From Candidatus Thalassospirochaeta sargassi (GTDB taxonomy: Bacteria > Spirochaetota > Spirochaetia > UBA9216): 64,000 nt of DNA. Below, piece after piece: positions 26,168 to 38,034 of the stretch (positions are counted from its first letter, which is position 1; each line of letters starts with the position of its first letter). Both the position numbers and the translations under genes were made by a program. Location: positions 1 to 64,000 of the forward strand of contig JAQQAL010000008.1 of assembly GCA_028532855.1 (NCBI GenBank). The letters are read 5' to 3'. The notes beneath the pieces were generated by a model. It searched no databases. It worked only from the letters and a program-made list of their open reading frames with translations, and was not told where the DNA came from.

Positions 26168-26836
26168 ATGCATATATTTTCCGACGACGATATAATTATA
26201 GTAAATAAAAGATGCGGGCAGGCTGTACAGCCGGGACCGGGGGTTACAGATTCTCTGATAGAGAGTCTTGAAAAGGATTTCGGGAAGCTTTACCTTGTGC
26301 ACAGGCTCGATACACCTGTCAGCGGGATCATTGTATTTGCAAGGAGTAAAAAATCCGCCGCATCACTCAGCAGACAGTTCAGTAACGCCGAAGTGAAAAA
26401 AAAATATGTATGTGCCGTAGATAATCCACCCCCGGTGGAAAACGGGACCCTTGAAAACCTTATCCACATCCCCTCTGGAAAAAAAGCAAATAAGGTTTAC
26501 ATCCGAACAGAAGACGGCCGGAATACAAAAAAAGCTGTGCTCGACTATCGAACAATATTCAGAACCGATCGTTATTATATTCTTGAGATTATCCTTCACA
26601 CAGGCCGAAGACATCAGATAAGAGCCCAGCTGTCCAATATAGGCTGTCATATAAAAGGTGATGTTAAATACGGAGCAAGAAGGACCAACCGGGCCGGCGG
26701 TATACATCTGCATGCCCTTTCACTTTCATTTGTCCATCCGCGGACAGGTACACAGCTTGAGTTCAGCGCACCGCTTCCGGACGAACCGCTTTGGAATGCA
26801 GTTTGTGAGGGCGTCGATTTACCACCCAGTTCTTAA
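26168..26836 (+). CDS. RluA-family RNA pseudouridine synthase
   Basis: 222 residues, the catalytic domain only (no S4 domain). The active-site motif HRLDTPVSG is near residue 45 with the catalytic aspartate; KKYVCAV and GRRHQIRAQL are the other conserved blocks. It isomerises a uridine in rRNA or tRNA; which site cannot be told. It starts at ATG 26168 without a clear ribosome-binding site. The 3' end overlaps the convergent zinc-ribbon gene by 18 bases. Confidence 0.9.
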   Translation: MHIFSDDDIIIVNKRCGQAVQPGPGVTDSLIESLEKDFGKLYLVHRLDTPVSGIIVFARSKKSAASLSRQFSNAEVKKKYVCAVDNPPPVENGTLENLIHIPSGKKANKVYIRTEDGRNTKKAVLDYRTIFRTDRYYILEIILHTGRRHQIRAQLSNIGCHIKGDVKYGARRTNRAGGIHLHALSLSFVHPRTGTQLEFSAPLPDEPLWNAVCEGVDLPPSS

Positions 26837-27163
26837 AAGAAGAATTACAAGGAGAATTATTATAATAAACAGAATGGGAATAGCCCGCAGGTAGAACTTA
26901 TCTGAAAAAAACCGGCGGGTTTCCTTTTTATTTTTAACAGTCTTCCGGCGCCCGCCTTCTTCTAGTTCGTAGAAATCAACATCTTCCCTGAATTTCTCGG
27001 CAGCATATCCGCAGGATGGGCATCCGTCAAGAAAAAGATCAGCAGGACCGGTCAGACCGCAGGACGGACAGCGGACCGATTTGAAAAACCGACCGCAATG
27101 TGGACATTTCGCGGCATTCCGGCTGACCTTTGTGCCGCAGTTATCACAATAGAACTTCTGCAT
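26819..27163 (-). CDS. Zinc-ribbon protein with one C-terminal membrane helix
   Basis: 114 residues. Three CxxC knuckles at the N-terminus (CDNCG, CPHCG, CPSCG) and a fourth (CPSCGY near 52) form two zinc ribbons. A charged linker and one C-terminal membrane helix (AIPILFIIIILLVILLL) follow, so the zinc domain faces the cytoplasm if the tail is anchored. It shares a base with the stop of the large phosphatase gene and is translated with it. A role as an adaptor of that protein is inferred only from the coupling. Confidence 0.75.
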   Translation of the reverse strand: MQKFYCDNCGTKVSRNAAKCPHCGRFFKSVRCPSCGLTGPADLFLDGCPSCGYAAEKFREDVDFYELEEGGRRKTVKNKKETRRFFSDKFYLRAIPILFIIIILLVILLLRTGW

Positions 27164-30100
27164 TACTTTTTATTTATACCTAGAATCGTAAGGTCATCAT
27201 ACTGCTCATCCTGGCGCAGGTGGCTGAAAGCTATAAACGGATCTTCCGGCTTGCCCTCGAGGGGATGAGAAAAATAATCATTATAGCTTTCAAAGTGCGT
27301 TTTAAGAAACGCTACAATCGCCTTGTCTATCTCAACGCGGTCATCCGGCCCGGCAGTCGGATCAGGATAAAGCCTGAAAACCCGCTCTACTGAGACAGCT
27401 GCCATTACAACCTCTTCAATACTTCCCTCAGTTTCAGTGAAATCAAAATACAGATATTCTTCACCCAGCGGGTTATGATATTTATACAGGGCATATCTTT
27501 CTTTTGCCATTAGAGTATTGATCAGTGTCTGTATACGGGGAACTCCAAACTCTTCATTGTCATTACCAACCGGATGCGTATCGTGCTCTGCTCCACGTTC
27601 CAACCCCTTCCAGTTACATTTAATGATATTGAAATCTTCATCCCTGAATTTACGCTGAGCTTCTTCAAGACCGTCTGTAAAAAGCAGGAGGCTGTCGCCG
27701 GGATTAAGTTTATCTTTAACCTGAACAAATCCGGTACCCATTCTAACCATATCGGAGGCGAATACACCTGACGCGGGTGATTCGGGGAGTTCTTTAATGA
27801 TCATCTTCTGCTGTGATGCATCAAAAACATGAAGGAGTTTATCTCCTGCATTACAAAGATATATTTCTCCGGTTTCAGAGTTAACTATAACTATTGTAAA
27901 TGCTGCAAATCGACCTTTAAATCCCCGCTCCTCAAGCATGTCGTTGATGCTGTAGGTAAGCTCTACGATATTAGGAGGCAGGGGTTTACCGCTCTTTGTT
28001 TTTACAACTTTACGATTCTTGAAGAAACTCAGAAATATCGTTGCCACCTCGACCATAATCAGTGAGGCCGGAACACCTTTACCGGCAACGTCACACTTAA
28101 TTGCCGCGTAGTGGACCTCATCAATCTTCCGGAAATCAAAATAGTCACCGGAAACACCCTTCGCACCCTCATAATAACCGAAAAATGCGATATCATCATT
28201 TTCTTCTTTTCCGGTAGAGATTTTATTTCCGGTAAAATCCTTTTCAAGCGGAATAAACATCTTCTGCACTTCCTTACCTACAGTAAGATCTTTATTGGCA
28301 ACAGCAGCTTTTACCAGACCGTGCGTCATCTGATTCACCGTTTCTGCAAGAACCGACAATTCGTCTCTGGTATTTATCTTAATTTCATGGCTCGATAAAT
28401 CTTCTTTATCCTCCGTATCTCTGATAACCTCAACACCGCGCACCAGTTTATTGATAGGACTAATCATCATAGCAGCAAGGAGAAGAGCTCCTACAAGACC
28501 CAGAACAAGGGCTGCCGCAGCTATCATGATAATCAGCCTGAACAGCGCATCGGTGGAATCAGAAATTGACTGCAATATTCCTTCGGTTGATATTCCCAGC
28601 CTTACGATACCCCTGAAGTATGAACTATCGTTCTGGCTTCTGAATACAATGGGCTTGTAAAATGTATAATCGGTTATTTCAGCTGAAAGTTCTTCAGAAT
28701 TATATACTGGATAACTTGCCACCCTGTCGCCTATTTCATACAACCTTGCATTAAGTTCAGTATCCAGGGTCCGCAGTTCATCCTGTATCTGATCTATTGC
28801 TTCACCAGCCTCAGGATCACTGGTTCTTATATACTGTTCAACAAGAGGCTCAACCTGTTCATTCAACCTCTGAATATCATCAACAATTACATCTACCCTT
28901 GCCGCAGCCTGTTCGTTCACAAGAATTGATAGCTCATTCGCAATCTCAGACACCGGGTCCGACATCCTATAACTTCCGGCAGAGCCTGCTGCATCACTTA
29001 TCGTTTCATCATTAGTAGCCCAGACATAGTCATAAATTCCCGGATCATAATTCCCGGCCCCTTCTATCCCCTTTGATGTTATTGTGACATAAACTGCATC
29101 TTCACCGAGGGCGGACATCTGTGCAGGCAGTGTATTAAGCTCAATAATATTCTCAGAAGGCAGAAAGGTTCTGGCACCGGATGCAATACTCTCTAACATA
29201 ACCTCAGCTCGCTCCTCCAGCCCTGAAGCCAGAATACTTCGCTGGTTTTCACTTGTAATAAACGCCATCGGGATGGAAACCATGGCTACAATCAGCATAA
29301 CAAGAATTGTTATAAGAAGTGTAAATTTCAACCTGAGTCCCATTCGTATCTTCGCCATTTCAGCTACCCTCTTCTTTCTTTCTTCTAATGTAACCGGTCC
29401 GCCCTCAATAAGGGCTTTAGCCTGCTTCTGCAGAGTCCGTGCCTCAACAACCAGCCGGGAGGTTCTTCTGATCGTAAATATAAATAAACAGATCAGGAAG
29501 AGCATGAGGATTCCCAGCAGAATATACCGGAACGGCAGGGTTAGCCTGCGCTGCGGTATCACCGACATCTCGGGTGTTGGAACTGCGGAGAAATCTCCGA
29601 GTTTTACAGTTCCCGAGGATTCTATCCCTATCGCGGAGTTTGTAAAGTACAATCCGCGGGTCGGATGTATAAGGCCTATCCGGTAATTCCCGGTGTCGAT
29701 ATTCTCAATTACTGGTCCTTTAATAAACCGATCGCTTCCGACATCGTATAGTTCATCCTCAATATTATAAACATAGTCATATGGTTCGGCTCCATCTCTG
29801 TCCAGGATTATCTGCTCAATAACACCGCCTACGGAAAACCCCCGGCCAGTGATCTCCAGCGTTACAGCGCCAAGCGCATCACGCTCGCTGTCTATACTAG
29901 TAATATAGGTTACAGGAATGTATTTATTCAGCCTGAACAGATAACTGCCGAGCTCCCCCGTATTACCTACATGGTCAACTGCCCGCACATTCAGCACCCA
30001 GAGTCCGTTATCTATGTTCTGAAATCTATAAGATGTTTCTTCAGTCATAATCCTGGATGCGGGGGTGTTGTAATTTATAAGCTCAGGATCACCGGCCCAG

Positions 30101-31785
30101 GTCCACCAGCCCACATACTGCAGACTGTAGCTGTAACCTGCTACGTCATCATCGTCAGGCGGAAGCCAGCTTATTGAGGATGTGTTAGACAGCATTGTTC
30201 CGTTTTCATCCAGAGGCGGCTCTTCGAAACTCACAATCCCCGGAGGTGTGGTATCGCGAACCATCTCAATTGAGGCAACATCCGACCAGTTTCCCGCATA
30301 ATCCTGCGCGATAACCTGGAAATACCAGCTACCGTCGCCATCCAAATCTACTGTAATGCTTCGATTCCGGTCCAGCATCTGAAGCTTCTTTTCGGGAATT
30401 TCTTCACTGTCGCGAGTCAGCAGATATGAATAACCGGCTATTCCAGATGAATCCGTCGGAGAATTCCACCTGATTGTGTAGCTGTCGCGACGGGAAGCCC
30501 TTCCGTCGGCGAAATCAGCGCCACGCAGTACCGGTGCCGTAACTGTTTTATCCGGGGCGAGCAGCATCAACCTTTTCCGACCCGCAAATTCGTTTTCCCA
30601 GAGCACGAAAAGATCCCCGCTGCTTACAAGCAGGTTTCCAAAAATAGACGAGCCGTCTGTAATATAGTTAAGATCATCATCGGACCAGAAAAGACCATCC
30701 TTGCTCGCAATAATATTGTGATAGTCACCGACCCTGTTATCAAACCAGATGATGTAGTCGTTTCCCTTATAATAGGTGAGCCTTGGAGATCGACATTCAG
30801 CAGCACCAGAGCTTACCTGTTCAGGAGTTGTCGTTATATTTCCACTATAGCCAATCCGACTGTAGTAGATCTGCGGGTTTCCGCCGGCAATACCGCGCTC
30901 CCAGACCATACTTACACCTGAAGGCGTCCCGAGTAGAAACGGGCGCTGGTTATCAAAAATGTAGGGATCGCCGTCCCACATATCGTTGTCCGAATCTTCG
31001 AACCCTGTCAGGTGTCTGGGGTCGGACCAGCTTCGACCCCCGTCGCTGCTGTATTTAAGATAAAGCTGGAAGGTAGAGGTTGCTCCTACATTAAAAGCCT
31101 GAAAGACTACGAACTCCCGTCCATTATACGAGGTGTGAGAAGGCAGAAAATTACCTTTCAACTCCGGCTCAGGTGCAAGGAGTTCGTATTCCGTCCAGCT
31201 GCTTCCGTCGTCGGAAACCGAATAATAGATTCCGAGCGAGCCGAAATCATCCTGAACCGACTCCTGGGTAACAAACAGTATAAGACCGCCGTCATCTCTT
31301 TGCGATAGCCTTGGACTGATTCTTACAGGAAATGGTGTAGAGCGGTATATTTCACGGAAGGATTTGCCGGCGTCGGTAGAGCGGTATATGCCCACTGTAT
31401 TATCATTGTTGGAGACTGCCAGTGTTATAAAGCCGTCGTTATCAATGGTGAAGGTGAAAAAGTAACTTGCATTTCCGGTATATTCAAAGGGGCCAAGGAA
31501 CCGTTCATTAGACTGCCACTGAGCACCGTCAAACGAGGTTACAGCTGACAGGTAGAACTCACCGCCGTCATCGTCCGAGCGAACCTCATCCTGCCATATA
31601 GACGCTATAAGGTTTCCTCCTGCCGCCGACTGAGAGAAACCCGCGCCGCTATCTACGAGAGGTGTTTCAGCCTCCCAGTAAAAATTCTGAGCTGACGCAG
31701 GAATACAGAAAAAAAAGAACATCAGCACTGCCGCCAGAACGGCAGGGGGAAGGACGGATAATCTGTGTGCAGGTTTAAATATCAT
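27163..31785 (-). CDS. Giant sensor phosphatase: BNR/sialidase-like ectodomain, HAMP, SpoIIE/PP2C
   Basis: 1540 residues. A signal peptide comes first, then an ectodomain of BNR-type repeats (about 35-420; repeated S-x-D-x-G-x-x-W or F, e.g. YRSTDAGKSF, KYSSDGGRSW). Fibronectin-III-like segments (about 430-640) and a beta-rich domain lie before the first membrane helix (near 755-777). A cytoplasmic linker and a second helix (near 830) lead to an extracytoplasmic Cache-like segment with a long coiled coil. A third helix, HAMP and a C-terminal PP2C/SpoIIE phosphatase end the protein. The metal-binding aspartates are present (SGDYFD, CDVAGKG, FTDGLEEA, YDDLTIL). It is predicted to dephosphorylate a Ser/Thr target, classically a STAS anti-anti-sigma factor, in response to an outside ligand. 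Confidence 0.85.
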   Translation of the reverse strand: MIFKPAHRLSVLPPAVLAAVLMFFFFCIPASAQNFYWEAETPLVDSGAGFSQSAAGGNLIASIWQDEVRSDDDGGEFYLSAVTSFDGAQWQSNERFLGPFEYTGNASYFFTFTIDNDGFITLAVSNNDNTVGIYRSTDAGKSFREIYRSTPFPVRISPRLSQRDDGGLILFVTQESVQDDFGSLGIYYSVSDDGSSWTEYELLAPEPELKGNFLPSHTSYNGREFVVFQAFNVGATSTFQLYLKYSSDGGRSWSDPRHLTGFEDSDNDMWDGDPYIFDNQRPFLLGTPSGVSMVWERGIAGGNPQIYYSRIGYSGNITTTPEQVSSGAAECRSPRLTYYKGNDYIIWFDNRVGDYHNIIASKDGLFWSDDDLNYITDGSSIFGNLLVSSGDLFVLWENEFAGRKRLMLLAPDKTVTAPVLRGADFADGRASRRDSYTIRWNSPTDSSGIAGYSYLLTRDSEEIPEKKLQMLDRNRSITVDLDGDGSWYFQVIAQDYAGNWSDVASIEMVRDTTPPGIVSFEEPPLDENGTMLSNTSSISWLPPDDDDVAGYSYSLQYVGWWTWAGDPELINYNTPASRIMTEETSYRFQNIDNGLWVLNVRAVDHVGNTGELGSYLFRLNKYIPVTYITSIDSERDALGAVTLEITGRGFSVGGVIEQIILDRDGAEPYDYVYNIEDELYDVGSDRFIKGPVIENIDTGNYRIGLIHPTRGLYFTNSAIGIESSGTVKLGDFSAVPTPEMSVIPQRRLTLPFRYILLGILMLFLICLFIFTIRRTSRLVVEARTLQKQAKALIEGGPVTLEERKKRVAEMAKIRMGLRLKFTLLITILVMLIVAMVSIPMAFITSENQRSILASGLEERAEVMLESIASGARTFLPSENIIELNTLPAQMSALGEDAVYVTITSKGIEGAGNYDPGIYDYVWATNDETISDAAGSAGSYRMSDPVSEIANELSILVNEQAAARVDVIVDDIQRLNEQVEPLVEQYIRTSDPEAGEAIDQIQDELRTLDTELNARLYEIGDRVASYPVYNSEELSAEITDYTFYKPIVFRSQNDSSYFRGIVRLGISTEGILQSISDSTDALFRLIIMIAAAALVLGLVGALLLAAMMISPINKLVRGVEVIRDTEDKEDLSSHEIKINTRDELSVLAETVNQMTHGLVKAAVANKDLTVGKEVQKMFIPLEKDFTGNKISTGKEENDDIAFFGYYEGAKGVSGDYFDFRKIDEVHYAAIKCDVAGKGVPASLIMVEVATIFLSFFKNRKVVKTKSGKPLPPNIVELTYSINDMLEERGFKGRFAAFTIVIVNSETGEIYLCNAGDKLLHVFDASQQKMIIKELPESPASGVFASDMVRMGTGFVQVKDKLNPGDSLLLFTDGLEEAQRKFRDEDFNIIKCNWKGLERGAEHDTHPVGNDNEEFGVPRIQTLINTLMAKERYALYKYHNPLGEEYLYFDFTETEGSIEEVVMAAVSVERVFRLYPDPTAGPDDRVEIDKAIVAFLKTHFESYNDYFSHPLEGKPEDPFIAFSHLRQDEQYDDLTILGINKK

Positions 31786-34700
31786 CGTGTTCTCTCTATC
31801 CTTTCCTGAAGATCAAGCAGTTTCGGGTTCCGGCTGTTATCCGGATCCTTCAGCAGGTTCTCAACTATAATTCGTGCCTTCAAATAGTTACCTGAAGTAT
31901 ACTCGCTTACAGCTTCATTATACAGCTGTTGATCGGTATTAGACAGAACGGCAGTGGCCGTACCGCCGACATCGGTTGAAATTCTATCCTTAAGCCTTAT
32001 TGCTTCATCATTATTCGGGTTAAGACTGATAGCTTCATCAAGATAACTCAGAGCTACGGTAAATTCCGAGCGAATATTGCGGCTTACTATATCATATGCA
32101 AGATCATATAGCTCACTGCTTCTAGCAAGTTTTGCAGGATCCGGCGGACGAACCTTGATTCCGGAAGCATATTCCGCTTCAGTAATGGCAGACTGAAGAC
32201 CGGGATAATCGGAGTTGATTACTTCAAGGTCCTTCAGGTCAATATACGCTTTCTGCGGATTGGACGAGATTAAGCCCCTGGCTGTCCTGAATTCATCACC
32301 GAAAATTTCTTCAAACTGCTCAGGATCACGATACTGACTTATACGCAGATTCAAGACCCTTGCCTCTTCATTGAATGGGAAAAACTGCTGAACATAAAGA
32401 ATACTCTGTTCCGCCCTGGCAAAGTAGACATCAGCCTCCGAACCGTCCCCATCGTCATAGAGATTCCTTGCCTGCTGAAAATCCTCCTGCGCCTGATTAA
32501 GGAACTGGTTCATTTCTGTGTATAGGGGATCGGTAGCGGCAATTACCCGTCCGGAGGTAACAGACAGAGCCGTCTGGGTAAGGGTCAACCAGTATTCAAC
32601 CTCAGGGTTTGGTTCGACATTAGTATCGGACCATCTGCTCTGCGCCCTGATGAGTACGGATTGTGCCGCTGGGAAGTTACCCTGTGAGTAGCTTGCTTTT
32701 CCTGAGGTCAGATATTCACGAACCTGCTTAACGACAAGATTGTTTTCGGCAACCTGAATCTCTTCATACAGCCGGGGAATCTCATTATCCCGATATGTTC
32801 GAAGAACAGTATCTTCAAGATAGGAAAGCGATTCGTCGAATTTTGCGGCGGCCTGCTCAAGGCGCTCTTTTGCCGCGGTAAACTGGGCCCTTTGAGTCAG
32901 CAGACGAGATTCCTCAATTCTTCGTTCTCCTTCCTGTTTCAGTTTTTCAGCAGTAAAAATCTGATCTCGCGCATCGTCCGCCATCCCGAGAGTTGTATCA
33001 AGAAGCGACAGGGCCTTTTTCATAAGGTCTTCAGAAGCGGCAGTAACAGTCTGAAGTTCAGAGCTCAGCCTAATCTCCGGACGCTCATCCTGAATCTGAA
33101 TATCAAGGGTGTTTATGCCGTTGATAAGGTTTTCAATTACATTTTCTGTAGCCGACAGCCGGGCGAGAGCCTGATCGGGATATTTATACAGCACGGTAAA
33201 ATCGACTTCATCCACTTCCGGTGCTGCCTCATCATCGGCCACGCCCTCTATAAGACTTATACTTTCTTCAACTTCGGCTGCTACTGTTTCATATTCGCTT
33301 CTAAGGCTGTCAAGATCGATGTTTCCGACTGATGCTGCAAGTATAATCTCGGATCTCAGCAGACCTTCCTCTATTGCTCCATATTCCTCAACAGGTATTT
33401 TAGCAGCAGCTATGCTCTTCTCCGATATCTCATTGCCTTCAACTGAATTGGCACTTATTTCACTGAGATTTACCTCCCACTCAGTTAGCAGCGAGCTTAT
33501 TTCAAGACTTTCCACTGAAAGCTCGCTCTTTATTTCTGCAGCAATATCACGGTAACCGTCAACTTCTCCATTGATTTCTGATATTCTCTGCTCAAAACCA
33601 GAAAGAGCCAGTCTCTTTTCCATAATTAATGGAAATTCTTCAGAAACACCGGACGCCTGAGCCAGATAATTCTTTTTAATTTCATATTCATCGATATCGG
33701 CGGATAGAATGCCGTCCCGGACAAATTGTGCATCGGATTCAAAATAATTTTCTCCGAATTCATAACTGCCGATACTGCTTTCAGCTGTCTTTAGAACGTC
33801 AGCAAAAACATCTCCTGCGGCCTCATAATCCCCGGTATTGTAAAGCCCTAATCCATCACTGAAAACCTCTTCTGTGTAGGCAAAAGATTCATCAAGCATG
33901 TTTTTAAATATGCTGTTCCAGAAAAGTTCTATGGCACCTGATATCCCCTCAGCCTCTTCCACTGTCGTTCGGCCATTGAGCAGTCTGTCCATATAAATCA
34001 AATAATGAATCTGTTTATCATCACCGACCAAATTGCGTATGTTCTCTTCCTGCACTATGAAATAATCAGCGGTATCCTTCAGACTTTCTCTGATCTCAGC
34101 CGTCCGGGCAAGAGCTCCATAAGAATCCTGAACAGCAGCCCCGTAGGCATCAACATTTCTGAGATTAAAGAAATTGCTCATTTCACTGCTTTTTTCAATC
34201 AGCTCCTGATACAGTTCAAGAAATTCAAGCGATTCTTTATTCATTACATCAGCCCGCTCAAAAACTTCATTGACAACGATATTACCATATCCGGCATCCC
34301 TGAAAATCAGACGGCTTAGATCAAACCCGCTCATATAGGTTTCGACCGCTGAGGAATAATCCGCAGCAGAGAGCTGCGCAGACGCATCTTCCATAATCTG
34401 AACCCAGCGGTTATTATTGAAAACAAAGCCGGCGGTTTCACGGGCAAGAACTAATGAAATCCTCGTAGCATCATTAGGATTCGGATCCATAGCCTCAAGT
34501 TCTGCTATCATTGGATAGGCGGCTTCAACGTCATCTCCTCCGTAAACCTCGATCAGTTCTTCGTATTTATCGTTATAAAGCTCCTTCTCAATTCTTATCC
34601 TCGAAAGCAGTGCCTGGACATCGTCCATCCGATTCGGATTTGTTCGCAGCAGCTCTGTTAGAACAAGAAGAGCCTGGTTATATTCGCGCTGTTCAACAAG

Positions 34701-34814
34701 AGCTTCAGCAGTTGCATAACTGTCTTCCTGAGCTCCCGATGCCGTAACTGACGCCGGCAGCAGTATAAGAAAGAGTATGATTAAAAATATTACCGCAAAT
34801 GCGTTTTTATGCAA
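31782..34814 (-). CDS. Large periplasmic TPR and coiled-coil protein
   Basis: 1010 residues from TTG at 34814 (AGAGG eight bases upstream). A signal peptide with a long hydrophobic core ends near VTA-SG (about residue 26). Tetratricopeptide-like repeats occur at the start (EALVEQREYNQALLVLTEL) and end (YNEAVSEYTSGNYLKARIIV), separated by about 600 residues of mostly coiled coil. It overlaps the phosphatase gene by four bases (ATGA), so the two proteins are made together. Probable role: a periplasmic partner or load sensor for the phosphatase ectodomain, by inference. Confidence 0.75.
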   Translation of the reverse strand: MHKNAFAVIFLIILFLILLPASVTASGAQEDSYATAEALVEQREYNQALLVLTELLRTNPNRMDDVQALLSRIRIEKELYNDKYEELIEVYGGDDVEAAYPMIAELEAMDPNPNDATRISLVLARETAGFVFNNNRWVQIMEDASAQLSAADYSSAVETYMSGFDLSRLIFRDAGYGNIVVNEVFERADVMNKESLEFLELYQELIEKSSEMSNFFNLRNVDAYGAAVQDSYGALARTAEIRESLKDTADYFIVQEENIRNLVGDDKQIHYLIYMDRLLNGRTTVEEAEGISGAIELFWNSIFKNMLDESFAYTEEVFSDGLGLYNTGDYEAAGDVFADVLKTAESSIGSYEFGENYFESDAQFVRDGILSADIDEYEIKKNYLAQASGVSEEFPLIMEKRLALSGFEQRISEINGEVDGYRDIAAEIKSELSVESLEISSLLTEWEVNLSEISANSVEGNEISEKSIAAAKIPVEEYGAIEEGLLRSEIILAASVGNIDLDSLRSEYETVAAEVEESISLIEGVADDEAAPEVDEVDFTVLYKYPDQALARLSATENVIENLINGINTLDIQIQDERPEIRLSSELQTVTAASEDLMKKALSLLDTTLGMADDARDQIFTAEKLKQEGERRIEESRLLTQRAQFTAAKERLEQAAAKFDESLSYLEDTVLRTYRDNEIPRLYEEIQVAENNLVVKQVREYLTSGKASYSQGNFPAAQSVLIRAQSRWSDTNVEPNPEVEYWLTLTQTALSVTSGRVIAATDPLYTEMNQFLNQAQEDFQQARNLYDDGDGSEADVYFARAEQSILYVQQFFPFNEEARVLNLRISQYRDPEQFEEIFGDEFRTARGLISSNPQKAYIDLKDLEVINSDYPGLQSAITEAEYASGIKVRPPDPAKLARSSELYDLAYDIVSRNIRSEFTVALSYLDEAISLNPNNDEAIRLKDRISTDVGGTATAVLSNTDQQLYNEAVSEYTSGNYLKARIIVENLLKDPDNSRNPKLLDLQERIERTR

Positions 34815-35053
34815 CTAACAGCCTCTAATTTTATATCCCAAAAGCATTTCGATGTTTTCCAACTTTCTTTCAGGGCGGAATACACCTGTTCCAATTCTCG
34901 GCATAAATTCAACCTCTAATGAGCTGTCATTAGAGGTTAATCCATATAACTTTATCACAGTTTAAGATTATTTTCGTCGTGTAAAGAGCTTCACCCGCCG
35001 TTAATAAAACTGTGATAGATAAGAAGAAGGAATTGTTGTATATTGTATAATTG

Positions 35054-36280
35054 ATGAGACGAAAATTTTTGTTCGCACTATTATTGATTCTCACGGCAAC
35101 AGGCCTGTTTGCGTCTGATTATTCCGATTATTACGGCAGCATTACCGATTCGGATTTTTTCACCGGCGATATCAATACAGGAACAACGGTCTTTCAGCTT
35201 TTACGCATTCCCGCAGGCGGTATTGCAGAAGCAATGGGAACAGCTCAGACCGCCGTGGCTGCTGACACCTCGTCAATTATGTACAACCCGGCCGTAACAT
35301 CACTGCTTGACCTCACTGAACTCACGTTCGGACATAACAACTGGATATCGGATTCAAGTATCGAGAGCGTAAATTTCACAACCAGGTTTGATGATCTTGG
35401 GATATCCGCCGGATTCAAGATGCTGTACCTGCCCTTTACCGGCCGTGACGATTGGGGCGAATCATATGTCAGGGGATACCCTCTTGAAGCTGTGTTATCA
35501 ATGAATGCCGCTTACAATTTCTTTAGAAATTACTATTTTAACGGAATATCGGCAGGTCTATCACTGAAAACCGGATACCGCTATATATCTGATGATTTTT
35601 ATGAAGACCAGTCTTCATTTGCTGTCATGGGAGATTTCGGCCTGTATACCAGCTTCAACTTTCTAAAGTTTTATGATTCAAGGGATAAAAACTTTTCTCT
35701 TGGTACTGTATTCAGAAATGCAGGAATTGAAACGCTGGGAGAAGCTCTGCCCACCGAATTTGCCGCGGGCTTTGCATATTCACCGATACATCCATTGAAT
35801 TTAGCCTTCGACTTCGTACTTCCGGTCAACCTGCTTGGAGAAGAGTCTGAAGAATGGTACATGGCCGGCGGATTTAATGCGATAATGACTGACTTTTTCT
35901 CTATACAAGGTGGTTTTAACTGGCGCGGCTCTAACCCAAGGCTCTCACTCGGAACAACCATCGATCTTGCCGAGGTAGCCTTCAACATCAACTATATGCA
36001 GGATCTCGCAACATCAACCGATGCTCTCGACAGGTTCAGCATCGAAGCCAGAATCAAATTAGGAGATGAAGGCCGTTATGAAAGACAGCACATGGTTGAC
36101 GAGCTCTATATTGCAGGCCTTGGTGCGTATGCTAATGGTGATCTGCAGAAGGCTATAGCCTACTGGGAAGCAGCGCTTGAACTGGACAACAGCTTCACAC
36201 CTGCTGAAGAATTTATTGCAAGTGCGGCCCGATCAATCGATCTTCTGAACCGGATGGAAGAACTTAATCGCGTTGAATAA
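35054..36280 (+). CDS. UPF0164/FadL-like outer-membrane protein with TPR tail
   Basis: 408 residues with a signal peptide (RRKFLFALLLILTATGLFAS). The mature N-terminus has the family pattern LLRIPAGGIAEAMGTAQTA, then MYNPA, as in the treponemal UPF0164 proteins, which are FadL-type barrels for hydrophobic substrates. The barrel spans about residues 60-340, followed by a short TPR-like tail (YIAGLGAYANGDLQKAIAYW). TTG at 35051 would also fit, but ATG at 35054 is preferred. There is no Shine-Dalgarno sequence, while TATATT lies just upstream, so the leader may be very short. It diverges from the large TPR/phosphatase operon. Confidence 0.75.
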   Translation: MRRKFLFALLLILTATGLFASDYSDYYGSITDSDFFTGDINTGTTVFQLLRIPAGGIAEAMGTAQTAVAADTSSIMYNPAVTSLLDLTELTFGHNNWISDSSIESVNFTTRFDDLGISAGFKMLYLPFTGRDDWGESYVRGYPLEAVLSMNAAYNFFRNYYFNGISAGLSLKTGYRYISDDFYEDQSSFAVMGDFGLYTSFNFLKFYDSRDKNFSLGTVFRNAGIETLGEALPTEFAAGFAYSPIHPLNLAFDFVLPVNLLGEESEEWYMAGGFNAIMTDFFSIQGGFNWRGSNPRLSLGTTIDLAEVAFNINYMQDLATSTDALDRFSIEARIKLGDEGRYERQHMVDELYIAGLGAYANGDLQKAIAYWEAALELDNSFTPAEEFIASAARSIDLLNRMEELNRVE

Positions 36281-37037
36281 TCTTTGTATAGACAGCAAAC
36301 AGGAATGGATCAACCTTTCTGCTTGACATCCACTTGAGCATCCTGGTTTTTCCAACAGCTGAATCGTCGCCCAACGTCAGCTTTCTGAACATTTTTTCAT
36401 GTTTTTTGATATCACTGTCATCGAACATCATCCTGATACTGTCCATCAACTCATTTACCTTCTGCCTATCGGAATAATCAAACATTATCCCGCTTTCATC
36501 CTTCGTCATATTCCTGAGCAGATGCTCCATATCAGTACTGGTTTCACAGACCTGCAGATACTGTTCAACATCTTTGGTGAAATTATCTTCATTGAAGACT
36601 ATCTCATCAACCTTTGTCCGCAGCCTCACTTTCATTGCAGTTGCTGTTTTTGAATCTGAATCACGTTTGGCAAGAATTATATAGCTTGCAACCGCGCCGG
36701 CAAACCCTACTATAATCTCATCAATCATGGGAATAGGATCCCGGATGACGACCGACATAATAAAATATAGAAGAAGAAATACAGCCGTAGACAGGAGAAA
36801 TCTGGGAATGAACTTCTTTTCGGAGCTCCAGTCCCTAACAGACTGCTCTATCAGCCTGTAAAGTTCATTGCGGAGCATAGTCAGCGATTCAACTCGCGGT
36901 TCCCGCCCGTATACACCGGCAATCTCATTTGAATCAAGAATATCGATCAAATTCTGCTTTGGTGTAAAAGGATACAGGAATATAGAACTTCCGTCCTTTC
37001 TGTAGATATGAAATATGGTTATCTTGCCTTCACTCAT
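36264..37037 (-). CDS. Two-helix membrane protein of unknown function
   Basis: 257 residues from ATG at 37037. The frame is open to TTG 37073, but that TTG is the -35 box of the promoter at 37045-37073, so the longer form is unlikely. A soluble N-terminal domain (about 75 residues) precedes two adjacent membrane helices (FLLSTAVFLLLYFIMSVV and IIVGFAGAVASYIILA). A charged C-terminal domain of about 130 residues follows. Both soluble parts should be cytoplasmic. No family recognised. The 3' end overlaps the convergent UPF0164 gene by 17 bases. Confidence 0.7.
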   Translation of the reverse strand: MSEGKITIFHIYRKDGSSIFLYPFTPKQNLIDILDSNEIAGVYGREPRVESLTMLRNELYRLIEQSVRDWSSEKKFIPRFLLSTAVFLLLYFIMSVVIRDPIPMIDEIIVGFAGAVASYIILAKRDSDSKTATAMKVRLRTKVDEIVFNEDNFTKDVEQYLQVCETSTDMEHLLRNMTKDESGIMFDYSDRQKVNELMDSIRMMFDDSDIKKHEKMFRKLTLGDDSAVGKTRMLKWMSSRKVDPFLFAVYTKIIQRD

Positions 37038-37044
37038 CAGGTTA

Positions 37045-37073
37045 AAAATACAGCCGTCCGTGGAAACCGTCAA
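37045..37073 (-). promoter_or_regulatory. Promoter giving a leaderless mRNA for the 36264-37037 gene
   Basis: Minus strand: TTGACG (37073-37068), 17 bases, TATTTT (37050-37045). The predicted +1 at 37038 is one base before the ATG at 37037. No Shine-Dalgarno sequence is present. Confidence 0.65.
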
Positions 37074-37107
37074 GCCGGTTTTCTAACGCAATCAAAAAAA
37101 TTGCATA

Positions 37108-38034
37108 CTAAGATCCGGATTCTAGCTTTTCATAGATCTCAGTCATCGAAAACAGTTTAGCATACTGTGCAGCTGTCATACCGAGACTGTCTTTGAGGGT
37201 AATATCAGCACCTTTTTCAATCAGGAGTTTGGCTACATCCTCCATTCTTGCGCCTATTGCAACAACAAGAGCTGATTGACCGTTTCGGTTTTTAAAATTT
37301 AGATCTGCTCCTCCGTCAATCAGAACCTCGGCAATTTCTGGTTTTACCGCCGTAACAGCATCCATAACCGGACTTGAACATCTGTCGCGGGCTATGATAT
37401 TCAGAGAAGCCCTGTAGCTCATAAGGATACGGCACATTTGAAGATCTCCGTTTCGTACGGCGATATTCAAAATCGGTACACCGTCCTTGGTTTCTGTTTC
37501 AGTTGAGAATCCGGCATCAAGAAAAGCCTGTACCTCCTTATACATCCCGTTCTCAACTGCTTCAATTAACCCTCTTCCGCTGAAACTTAAATCCGCATCA
37601 GAGATTATTCTGCGTGCATCAAGCAGCATTTTATTACTTTCAAAAACTTTCTTTTCCCTGCGGAAATAACCTAAAGCCTCCCCTATGCTGCCTACCACCG
37701 GTTCTCCGTAAAAAATCTCATTAAATTTTCCAATATCGCAGGAATAAAACAGTATCCGCCCCTTCTTCGCCAGCATATATCCTGCCGCTATCGATTCAAG
37801 CATACATTCAGAACAATTTTGAGCCCTTCCGGACCCACCCTCAAAACTTTTTTCCGTTAGACTACCTGGTATCATGAAATAAAGCTCTGAATCACGCAGA
37901 CAGGTACTCAGAGTTTTTTCCGAAACTTCATCAAAGTAGAGTATTTCACAATGCACCTTTTCAAGCTCAAGGAGTCTTTCGAGCGTCTCAAAGATGCTGC
38001 TGTGTTCTTTTCTTCCAAGCATTAATAATTTCAA
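37108..38034 (-). CDS. Ankyrin-repeat protein with Rossmann-like N-terminal domain
   Basis: 308 residues, no signal peptide, so cytoplasmic. The C-terminal half (about 165-300) is four or more ankyrin repeats (GVPILNIAVRNGDLQMCRIL, GQSALVVAIGARMEDVAKLL). The N-terminal 130 residues start with a strand-helix unit (MKLLMLGRK). A later segment, MLESIAAGYMLAKKGRILFY, resembles the nucleotide-binding core of TIR-like and nucleoside deoxyribosyltransferase-like domains, but the resemblance is loose. The fused arrangement suggests a regulated enzyme or signalling protein; no function is assigned. Confidence 0.7.
   Translation of the reverse strand: MKLLMLGRKEHSSIFETLERLLELEKVHCEILYFDEVSEKTLSTCLRDSELYFMIPGSLTEKSFEGGSGRAQNCSECMLESIAAGYMLAKKGRILFYSCDIGKFNEIFYGEPVVGSIGEALGYFRREKKVFESNKMLLDARRIISDADLSFSGRGLIEAVENGMYKEVQAFLDAGFSTETETKDGVPILNIAVRNGDLQMCRILMSYRASLNIIARDRCSSPVMDAVTAVKPEIAEVLIDGGADLNFKNRNGQSALVVAIGARMEDVAKLLIEKGADITLKDSLGMTAAQYAKLFSMTEIYEKLESGS

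Follow-up and report, generated by a model that had tools for sequence, protein, structure and literature searches.

The window, the whole stretch of 64,000 nt analysed, carries a locus for a giant membrane phosphatase, whose probable task is to inform a cytoplasmic regulator of the condition of the cell envelope. The reading that is modestly favoured is a periplasmic and inner-membrane sensor phosphatase with a dedicated helical periplasmic partner, which would feed a switch of the RsbU/RsbV type. All four genes described in an earlier note on this DNA are found at exactly the coordinates given there, and the locus has the following features.

26819..27163, minus strand: 114-aa double zinc-ribbon protein with C-terminal TM, overlapping the phosphatase stop (ORF, profile)
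27163..31785, minus strand: 1540-aa sensor phosphatase (ORF, Pfam, model)
31782..34814, minus strand: 1010-aa all-alpha periplasmic TPR/long-helix protein, TTG start (ORF, Pfam, model)
34815..35050, no strand: divergent intergenic region between the TPR and barrel genes
34911..34938, no strand: perfect 12-bp inverted repeat with 4-nt loop, in the divergent intergenic region
35051..36280, plus strand: 409-aa UPF0164 (FadL/PorV-like) outer-membrane barrel with C-terminal TPR, divergent (ORF, Pfam)
36264..37073, minus strand: 269-aa membrane protein, function unassigned, frequent neighbour beyond the barrel
37108..38034, minus strand: 308-aa ankyrin-repeat protein, frequent neighbour beyond the barrel

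As the earlier note had described, the TPR gene lies upstream of the phosphatase gene, and the barrel gene diverges from this pair. The TPR and phosphatase genes overlap by 4 nt. UPF0164 (PF03687) was recognized in the barrel at 2.5e-34 (119 bits, cut-off 21.4), and TPR at its C-terminus (both Pfam). The phosphatase is laid out as follows.

Residues ~1-33: signal peptide
Residues ~35-410: 7-bladed propeller
Residues ~415-722: Ig/FN3-like domains and a third Ig/IPT-like domain
Residues 747-776: TM1, followed by a cytoplasmic loop
Residues 813-846: TM2
Residues 847-1076: periplasmic alpha/beta sensor
Residues 1077-1112: TM3
Residues 1102-1157: HAMP
Residues 1225-1540: SpoIIE/PP2C, with an insert of ~100 aa ahead of the last DD

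By charge pattern, the part up to ~746 and residues 847-1076 are periplasmic and the remainder is cytoplasmic. SpoIIE (PF07228) was matched at 2e-19 (70.7 bits, curated cut-off 25), HAMP at 2.9e-6, and BNR_2 at 4e-5, the last below its own cut-off (all Pfam). Metal-site residues D1214, D1232, D1371, and D1530/D1531 do not vary among 15 diverse orthologs. Residues 1-1200, modelled with AlphaFold2 from 76 sequences (mean pLDDT 83.9, pTM 0.50), show a long run of beta-strands, followed by helices and by the periplasmic alpha/beta sensor, which contains a long helical hairpin. The BNR/fibronectin-like ectodomain, HAMP, and SpoIIE/PP2C phosphatase proposed earlier were all recovered, but the Cache-like segment is confirmed only in part: no Pfam Cache model matched the 1540-aa protein at E <= 1, and residues 847-1076 were modelled as an alpha/beta domain.

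TP0854 of T. pallidum, the agent of syphilis, is annotated as sialidase-like and TP0855 is a predicted outer-membrane protein (PMC10600179, PMC5015957); TPANIC_0854 is listed as sialidase-like in PMC10600179. The structural label on TP0854 would suggest a functional sialidase fused to a phosphatase, a reading of the ectodomain that is extremely improbable. The propeller does match sialidases by sequence profile and fold, but Foldseek with the first ~400 residues, which returned beta-propellers, scored seven-bladed lyases and lectins best (target-normalised TM 0.61-0.68), against 0.43-0.45 for six-bladed sialidases. The ectodomain has 0-3 Asp-box-like motifs, mostly 1-2, where a GH33 sialidase would have a six-bladed propeller and several Asp boxes, and it is anchored behind a TM. 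Blade number and motif counts were the grounds for rejecting the sialidase reading.

The 1010-aa protein matches TPR_14 at 4.5e-7 (Pfam) and was modelled as all-alpha, with helices of 40-59 residues (pLDDT 87.6 locally; pTM 0.50, overall shape unreliable). Foldseek returned generic TPR solenoids only, with whole-chain TM of about 0.1 or less by query. A lipobox-like motif is present in 2 of 98 orthologs. The T. pallidum ortholog TP0855 (L046:12187-15570), placed in the outer membrane by the literature, belongs to this family modelled as all-alpha; on that model an outer-membrane barrel was ruled out for the family, and the annotation probably needs correcting.

Gene order was compared by tblastn and profile searches of neighbourhoods, using the full-length loci whose upstream flank was 5.6 kb or longer (n=77). 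A barrel gene diverging from a TPR gene that precedes the phosphatase gene was found in 74 of the 77, across Spirochaetia. Loci L098 and L137 have the TPR gene and no adjacent barrel; L126 has only a TPR remnant of 129 aa and no barrel. An exact 4-nt overlap of the TPR and phosphatase genes was found in 65 of 95 loci. Products and order of the T. pallidum locus match TP0854, TP0855, and TP0856, described as SpoIIE phosphatase, hypothetical protein, and UPF0164 protein, respectively (PMC10600179). The earlier note had pointed to a similar neighbourhood in Treponema and named loss of gene order in related spirochaetes, together with a lack of interaction between the products, as grounds against its proposal; the likeness is borne out, and the order is kept both there and in the 74 loci.

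Co-occurrence was scored in 295 genomes of the phylum, 179 in class Spirochaetia and 116 outside it. Of the class genomes, 88 encode both an ectodomain-bearing phosphatase and the TPR protein, 91 encode neither, and none encodes just one of the two; these counts are not phylogenetically independent. Eight genomes have a short form of the phosphatase (TM2-sensor-TM3-HAMP-PP2C) starting near TM2; all eight are without the TPR gene, and no adjacent barrel was found in any of the seven short-form loci fetched. In a tree of the shared TM2-PP2C part (31 sequences), there are six changes between short and full form, at least five of them on well-supported branches. Five independent pairs, compared for ectodomain and TPR protein, were all concordant (sign test p = 0.0625, the minimum possible for five pairs). 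Because of these counts, the short forms without TPR gene, and the five concordant pairs, the ectodomain and the TPR protein come and go together as a single unit, as expected of a physical pair, and a complex between them is likely. Outside the class, a phosphatase match below 1e-60 was obtained in two of the 116 genomes only (G001 and G014), both with a TPR-like gene immediately upstream (loci L058 and L050); no barrel was found beside these two loci. A role linked to the flagellum was set aside: group f5, which we take to be Borreliaceae, is motile yet without the module.

The barrel was scored by adjacency to the locus, and its family has paralogs; its direct part in signalling, for which conserved adjacency is the basis, is put forward tentatively. 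It resembles the PorV/PorQ family at 1.5e-19, below cut-off, and fails the NCBIfam models of type IX secretion PorV/PorQ (70.7 bits against 90, and 47.9 against 220). The 114-aa protein has a double zinc ribbon (7.5e-7); its gene is listed in 41 loci, two of which have it about 6 kb further away, and none was seen in Treponema-type loci. It was counted in the set by the earlier note and does overlap the phosphatase stop in the window, but it is not fixed and is regarded as a facultative operon member. The single outer-membrane-to-cytoplasm system proposed there thus holds in part: the link between TPR protein and phosphatase, which stands on the co-occurrence counts and on joint losses in at least five lineages, has the strongest backing that comparing genomes can give, the barrel is tied to them by adjacency only, and the zinc-ribbon protein drops out as a constant member.

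An unknown target and no STAS gene nearby were also reported in the earlier note, with a search for co-occurring STAS proteins as a check. For the window this is correct: no STAS match was obtained in the 64 kb, which belong to contig C8; contigs C11 and C28 carry the STAS matches of this genome. Outside the window, a strong candidate follows the phosphatase through the class. It is a TP0233-like protein of 183 aa (G000:C11:226946-227494) that has both a STAS domain (1.1e-23) and, at the C-terminus, a four-cysteine ribbon, and its gene is unlinked to the phosphatase locus. Among the 179 class genomes, 96 have both this STAS-zinc-ribbon protein and the phosphatase (short or long), none the phosphatase only, eight the STAS-zinc-ribbon protein only, and 75 neither; it is present in 96/96 phosphatase-positive and 8/83 phosphatase-negative genomes (Fisher 9e-42, kinship ignored). 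Identity to the query is at least 64% (median 72%) in phosphatase-positive genomes; in the eight phosphatase-less genomes it is 52-56% in seven and 69% in one, the seven behaving as if released from constraint, or through lineage effects. Among the 116 genomes outside the class, a match below 1e-50 was obtained only in G001 and G014, the same two that have the phosphatase. G236 and G147, which have the full-length phosphatase, contain no other STAS protein, and G238 contains only one other, of SulP length. Mean column identity is 83% (11 rows), and Thr76, invariant in these rows, aligns with Ser58 of SpoIIAA, a phosphosite (PMC11418112). The STAS-zinc-ribbon protein is a reasonably likely substrate of the phosphatase, its place in the pathway being deduced from co-occurrence.

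A kinase candidate, weaker than the STAS candidate, is a protein with HATPase_c_2 and a cyclic-nucleotide-binding domain. In G236, the sole HATPase_c_2 protein over threshold has 438 aa and a C-terminal domain of this kind. Matches at E < 1e-50 were obtained in 72/96 phosphatase-positive and 3/83 phosphatase-negative class genomes. T. pallidum carries it (G041:C1:1081207-1082412), and no classical RsbW-type kinase was found above cut-off there. Missing from 24 of the 96 phosphatase-positive genomes, it was ruled out as a universal kinase. Conserved spirochaete proteins of about 440 aa with this domain pair were also seen at L145:1000-2316 and L219:979-2286, and the family may link cyclic nucleotides to partner switching.

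In the proposed mechanism, the TPR protein would bind or present an envelope signal to the propeller/Ig ectodomain; it probably forms a bridge in the direction of the outer membrane, possibly also of the barrel, which has a C-terminal TPR of its own. From the ectodomain the signal would pass through TM1/TM2, the periplasmic sensor, and then TM3; a change in the PP2C dimer would be brought about by the HAMP/helical linker. The phosphatase would then dephosphorylate the soluble STAS-zinc-ribbon protein, as RsbU does RsbV, and the dephosphorylated protein would shift a partner-switching pathway. Which proteins touch, which way the reaction runs, and what the signal and the output are is inferred. 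PPM phosphatases are known to be driven by sensor domains, including HAMP, via dimeric helical linkers, with STAS proteins as substrates (PMC12143880, PMC11418112).

SpoIIE phosphatases with periplasmic sensors are an already known kind, and the T. pallidum products have been annotated singly. With RsbU/SpoIIE and RsbV/SpoIIAA of Bacillus subtilis, the system shares a SpoIIE/PPM phosphatase with metal-site aspartates, a sensor region joined to it by a HAMP/helical linker, and a threonine at the Ser58 position of the STAS protein. It differs in the very large periplasmic ectodomain with dedicated helical partner, in the insert of ~100 aa in the phosphatase domain, and in a STAS protein that carries a zinc ribbon and is encoded at an unlinked site. 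T. pallidum TP0854-TP0855-TP0856 and TP0233 are the closest counterpart, with an orthologous phosphatase (6.5e-214), the TPR protein, a STAS protein of 68% identity, and the same order; unlike the window, T. pallidum has three tandem barrel genes, the nearest 23% identical to the barrel here, and no zinc-ribbon gene beside the locus. The FadL-like proteins TP0548, TP0856, TP0858, TP0859, and TP0865 are also PF03687 barrels, some with a C-terminal TPR-type helical extension, but the barrel here is fixed beside a sensor operon. The hybrid two-component system BT4663 (a weak fold match) likewise joins a large periplasmic beta-propeller/Ig ectodomain across the membrane to a signalling enzyme; here the propeller is different, the output is a PP2C phosphatase and not a histidine kinase, and an extra periplasmic sensor lies between TM2 and TM3.

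The phosphatase could instead act on another STAS protein or on a substrate of a Hanks kinase, the STAS-zinc-ribbon protein being a general regulator merely retained in the same lineages. The unlinked gene and the eight phosphatase-less genomes that keep it favour this; SpoIIE matches number 2-7 per checked genome, and since other PP2Cs are present in every one of these, the STAS-zinc-ribbon protein may serve several phosphatases. Such a reading is unlikely in view of the 96/96 co-occurrence, its replication outside the class in G001 and G014, and the genomes in which no other STAS protein exists; many out-of-class genomes, moreover, have STAS proteins and phosphatase-domain matches without the STAS-zinc-ribbon ortholog.

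Two further explanations concern the envelope side. The barrel and TPR protein may mainly be a transport or outer-membrane assembly device, with FadL/PorV-like uptake and a periplasmic TPR carrier, of which the phosphatase reads load or flux. In line with this are the UPF0164 membership and sub-threshold PorV/PorQ likeness of the barrel, the run of three barrel genes in T. pallidum, and the modelling of T. pallidum FadL-like proteins as channels for hydrophobic substrates, some with TPR-type periplasmic extensions (PMC8407342). The TPR protein, however, follows the ectodomain without exception, even at loci lacking an adjacent barrel (L050, L058, L098, L137), and we hold this explanation somewhat unlikely. 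Improbable, too, is that the TPR protein ties the two membranes together as a structural tether and that the phosphatase senses periplasm spacing or tension: the long helices of the all-alpha model and the conserved pairing with a membrane-anchored ectodomain would suit it, but the overall shape of that model is unreliable and a lipid anchor is lacking in the family, apart from the two lipobox-like motifs.

Under the favoured sensor-phosphatase reading, a named substrate candidate, an obligatory periplasmic partner, and natural joint-loss variants make a pathway open to experiment out of a locus that had no explanation. To our knowledge, few regulators are known in spirochaetes, above all in T. 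pallidum. Despite its reduction, the T. pallidum genome has kept the module, whose barrel neighbours are candidates for vaccines. Its products were detected in T. pallidum proteomes (PMC10600179). In the open-access literature, subscription papers being outside the scope, no account of the module, the obligatory pair, or the STAS-zinc-ribbon link was found, and nothing functional on T. pallidum TP0854-TP0856 or TP0233. A full phospho-signalling route from outer membrane to cytoplasm, peculiar to spirochaetes and running from FadL-like barrel through giant TPR protein, propeller sensor phosphatase, and STAS/zinc-ribbon switch to cyclic-nucleotide-binding kinase, kept down to T. pallidum, is a rather doubtful extension; if true, this minimal genome would have in it one of its main transcriptional responses to the envelope.

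The inverted repeat at 34911-34938 reads AACCTCTAATGA-GCTG-TCATTAGAGGTT, and two relatives (L062 and L063) share its core. The palindrome is a single copy in the whole genome, so a regulon operator was ruled out and its role is at most local, possibly as an operator or hairpin. A second inverted pair of 11 bp (34953-34963 and 35007-35017) lies 5' of the barrel gene. No RNA element was found at the locus by Rfam search. The 269-aa membrane protein and 308-aa ankyrin protein (36264-38034) are kept at the locus in many non-Treponema genomes; these frequent neighbours are candidate members at most.

Further SpoIIE phosphatases were observed next to STAS genes elsewhere. In the genome of the window, a separate SpoIIE phosphatase with adjacent STAS gene (G000:C28:34190-35744, L215) forms a second partner-switching module. 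In T. pallidum, two further SpoIIE phosphatases in a row are followed by a 108-aa STAS gene (L211:3354-7329), presumably the TP0218-TP0220 region.
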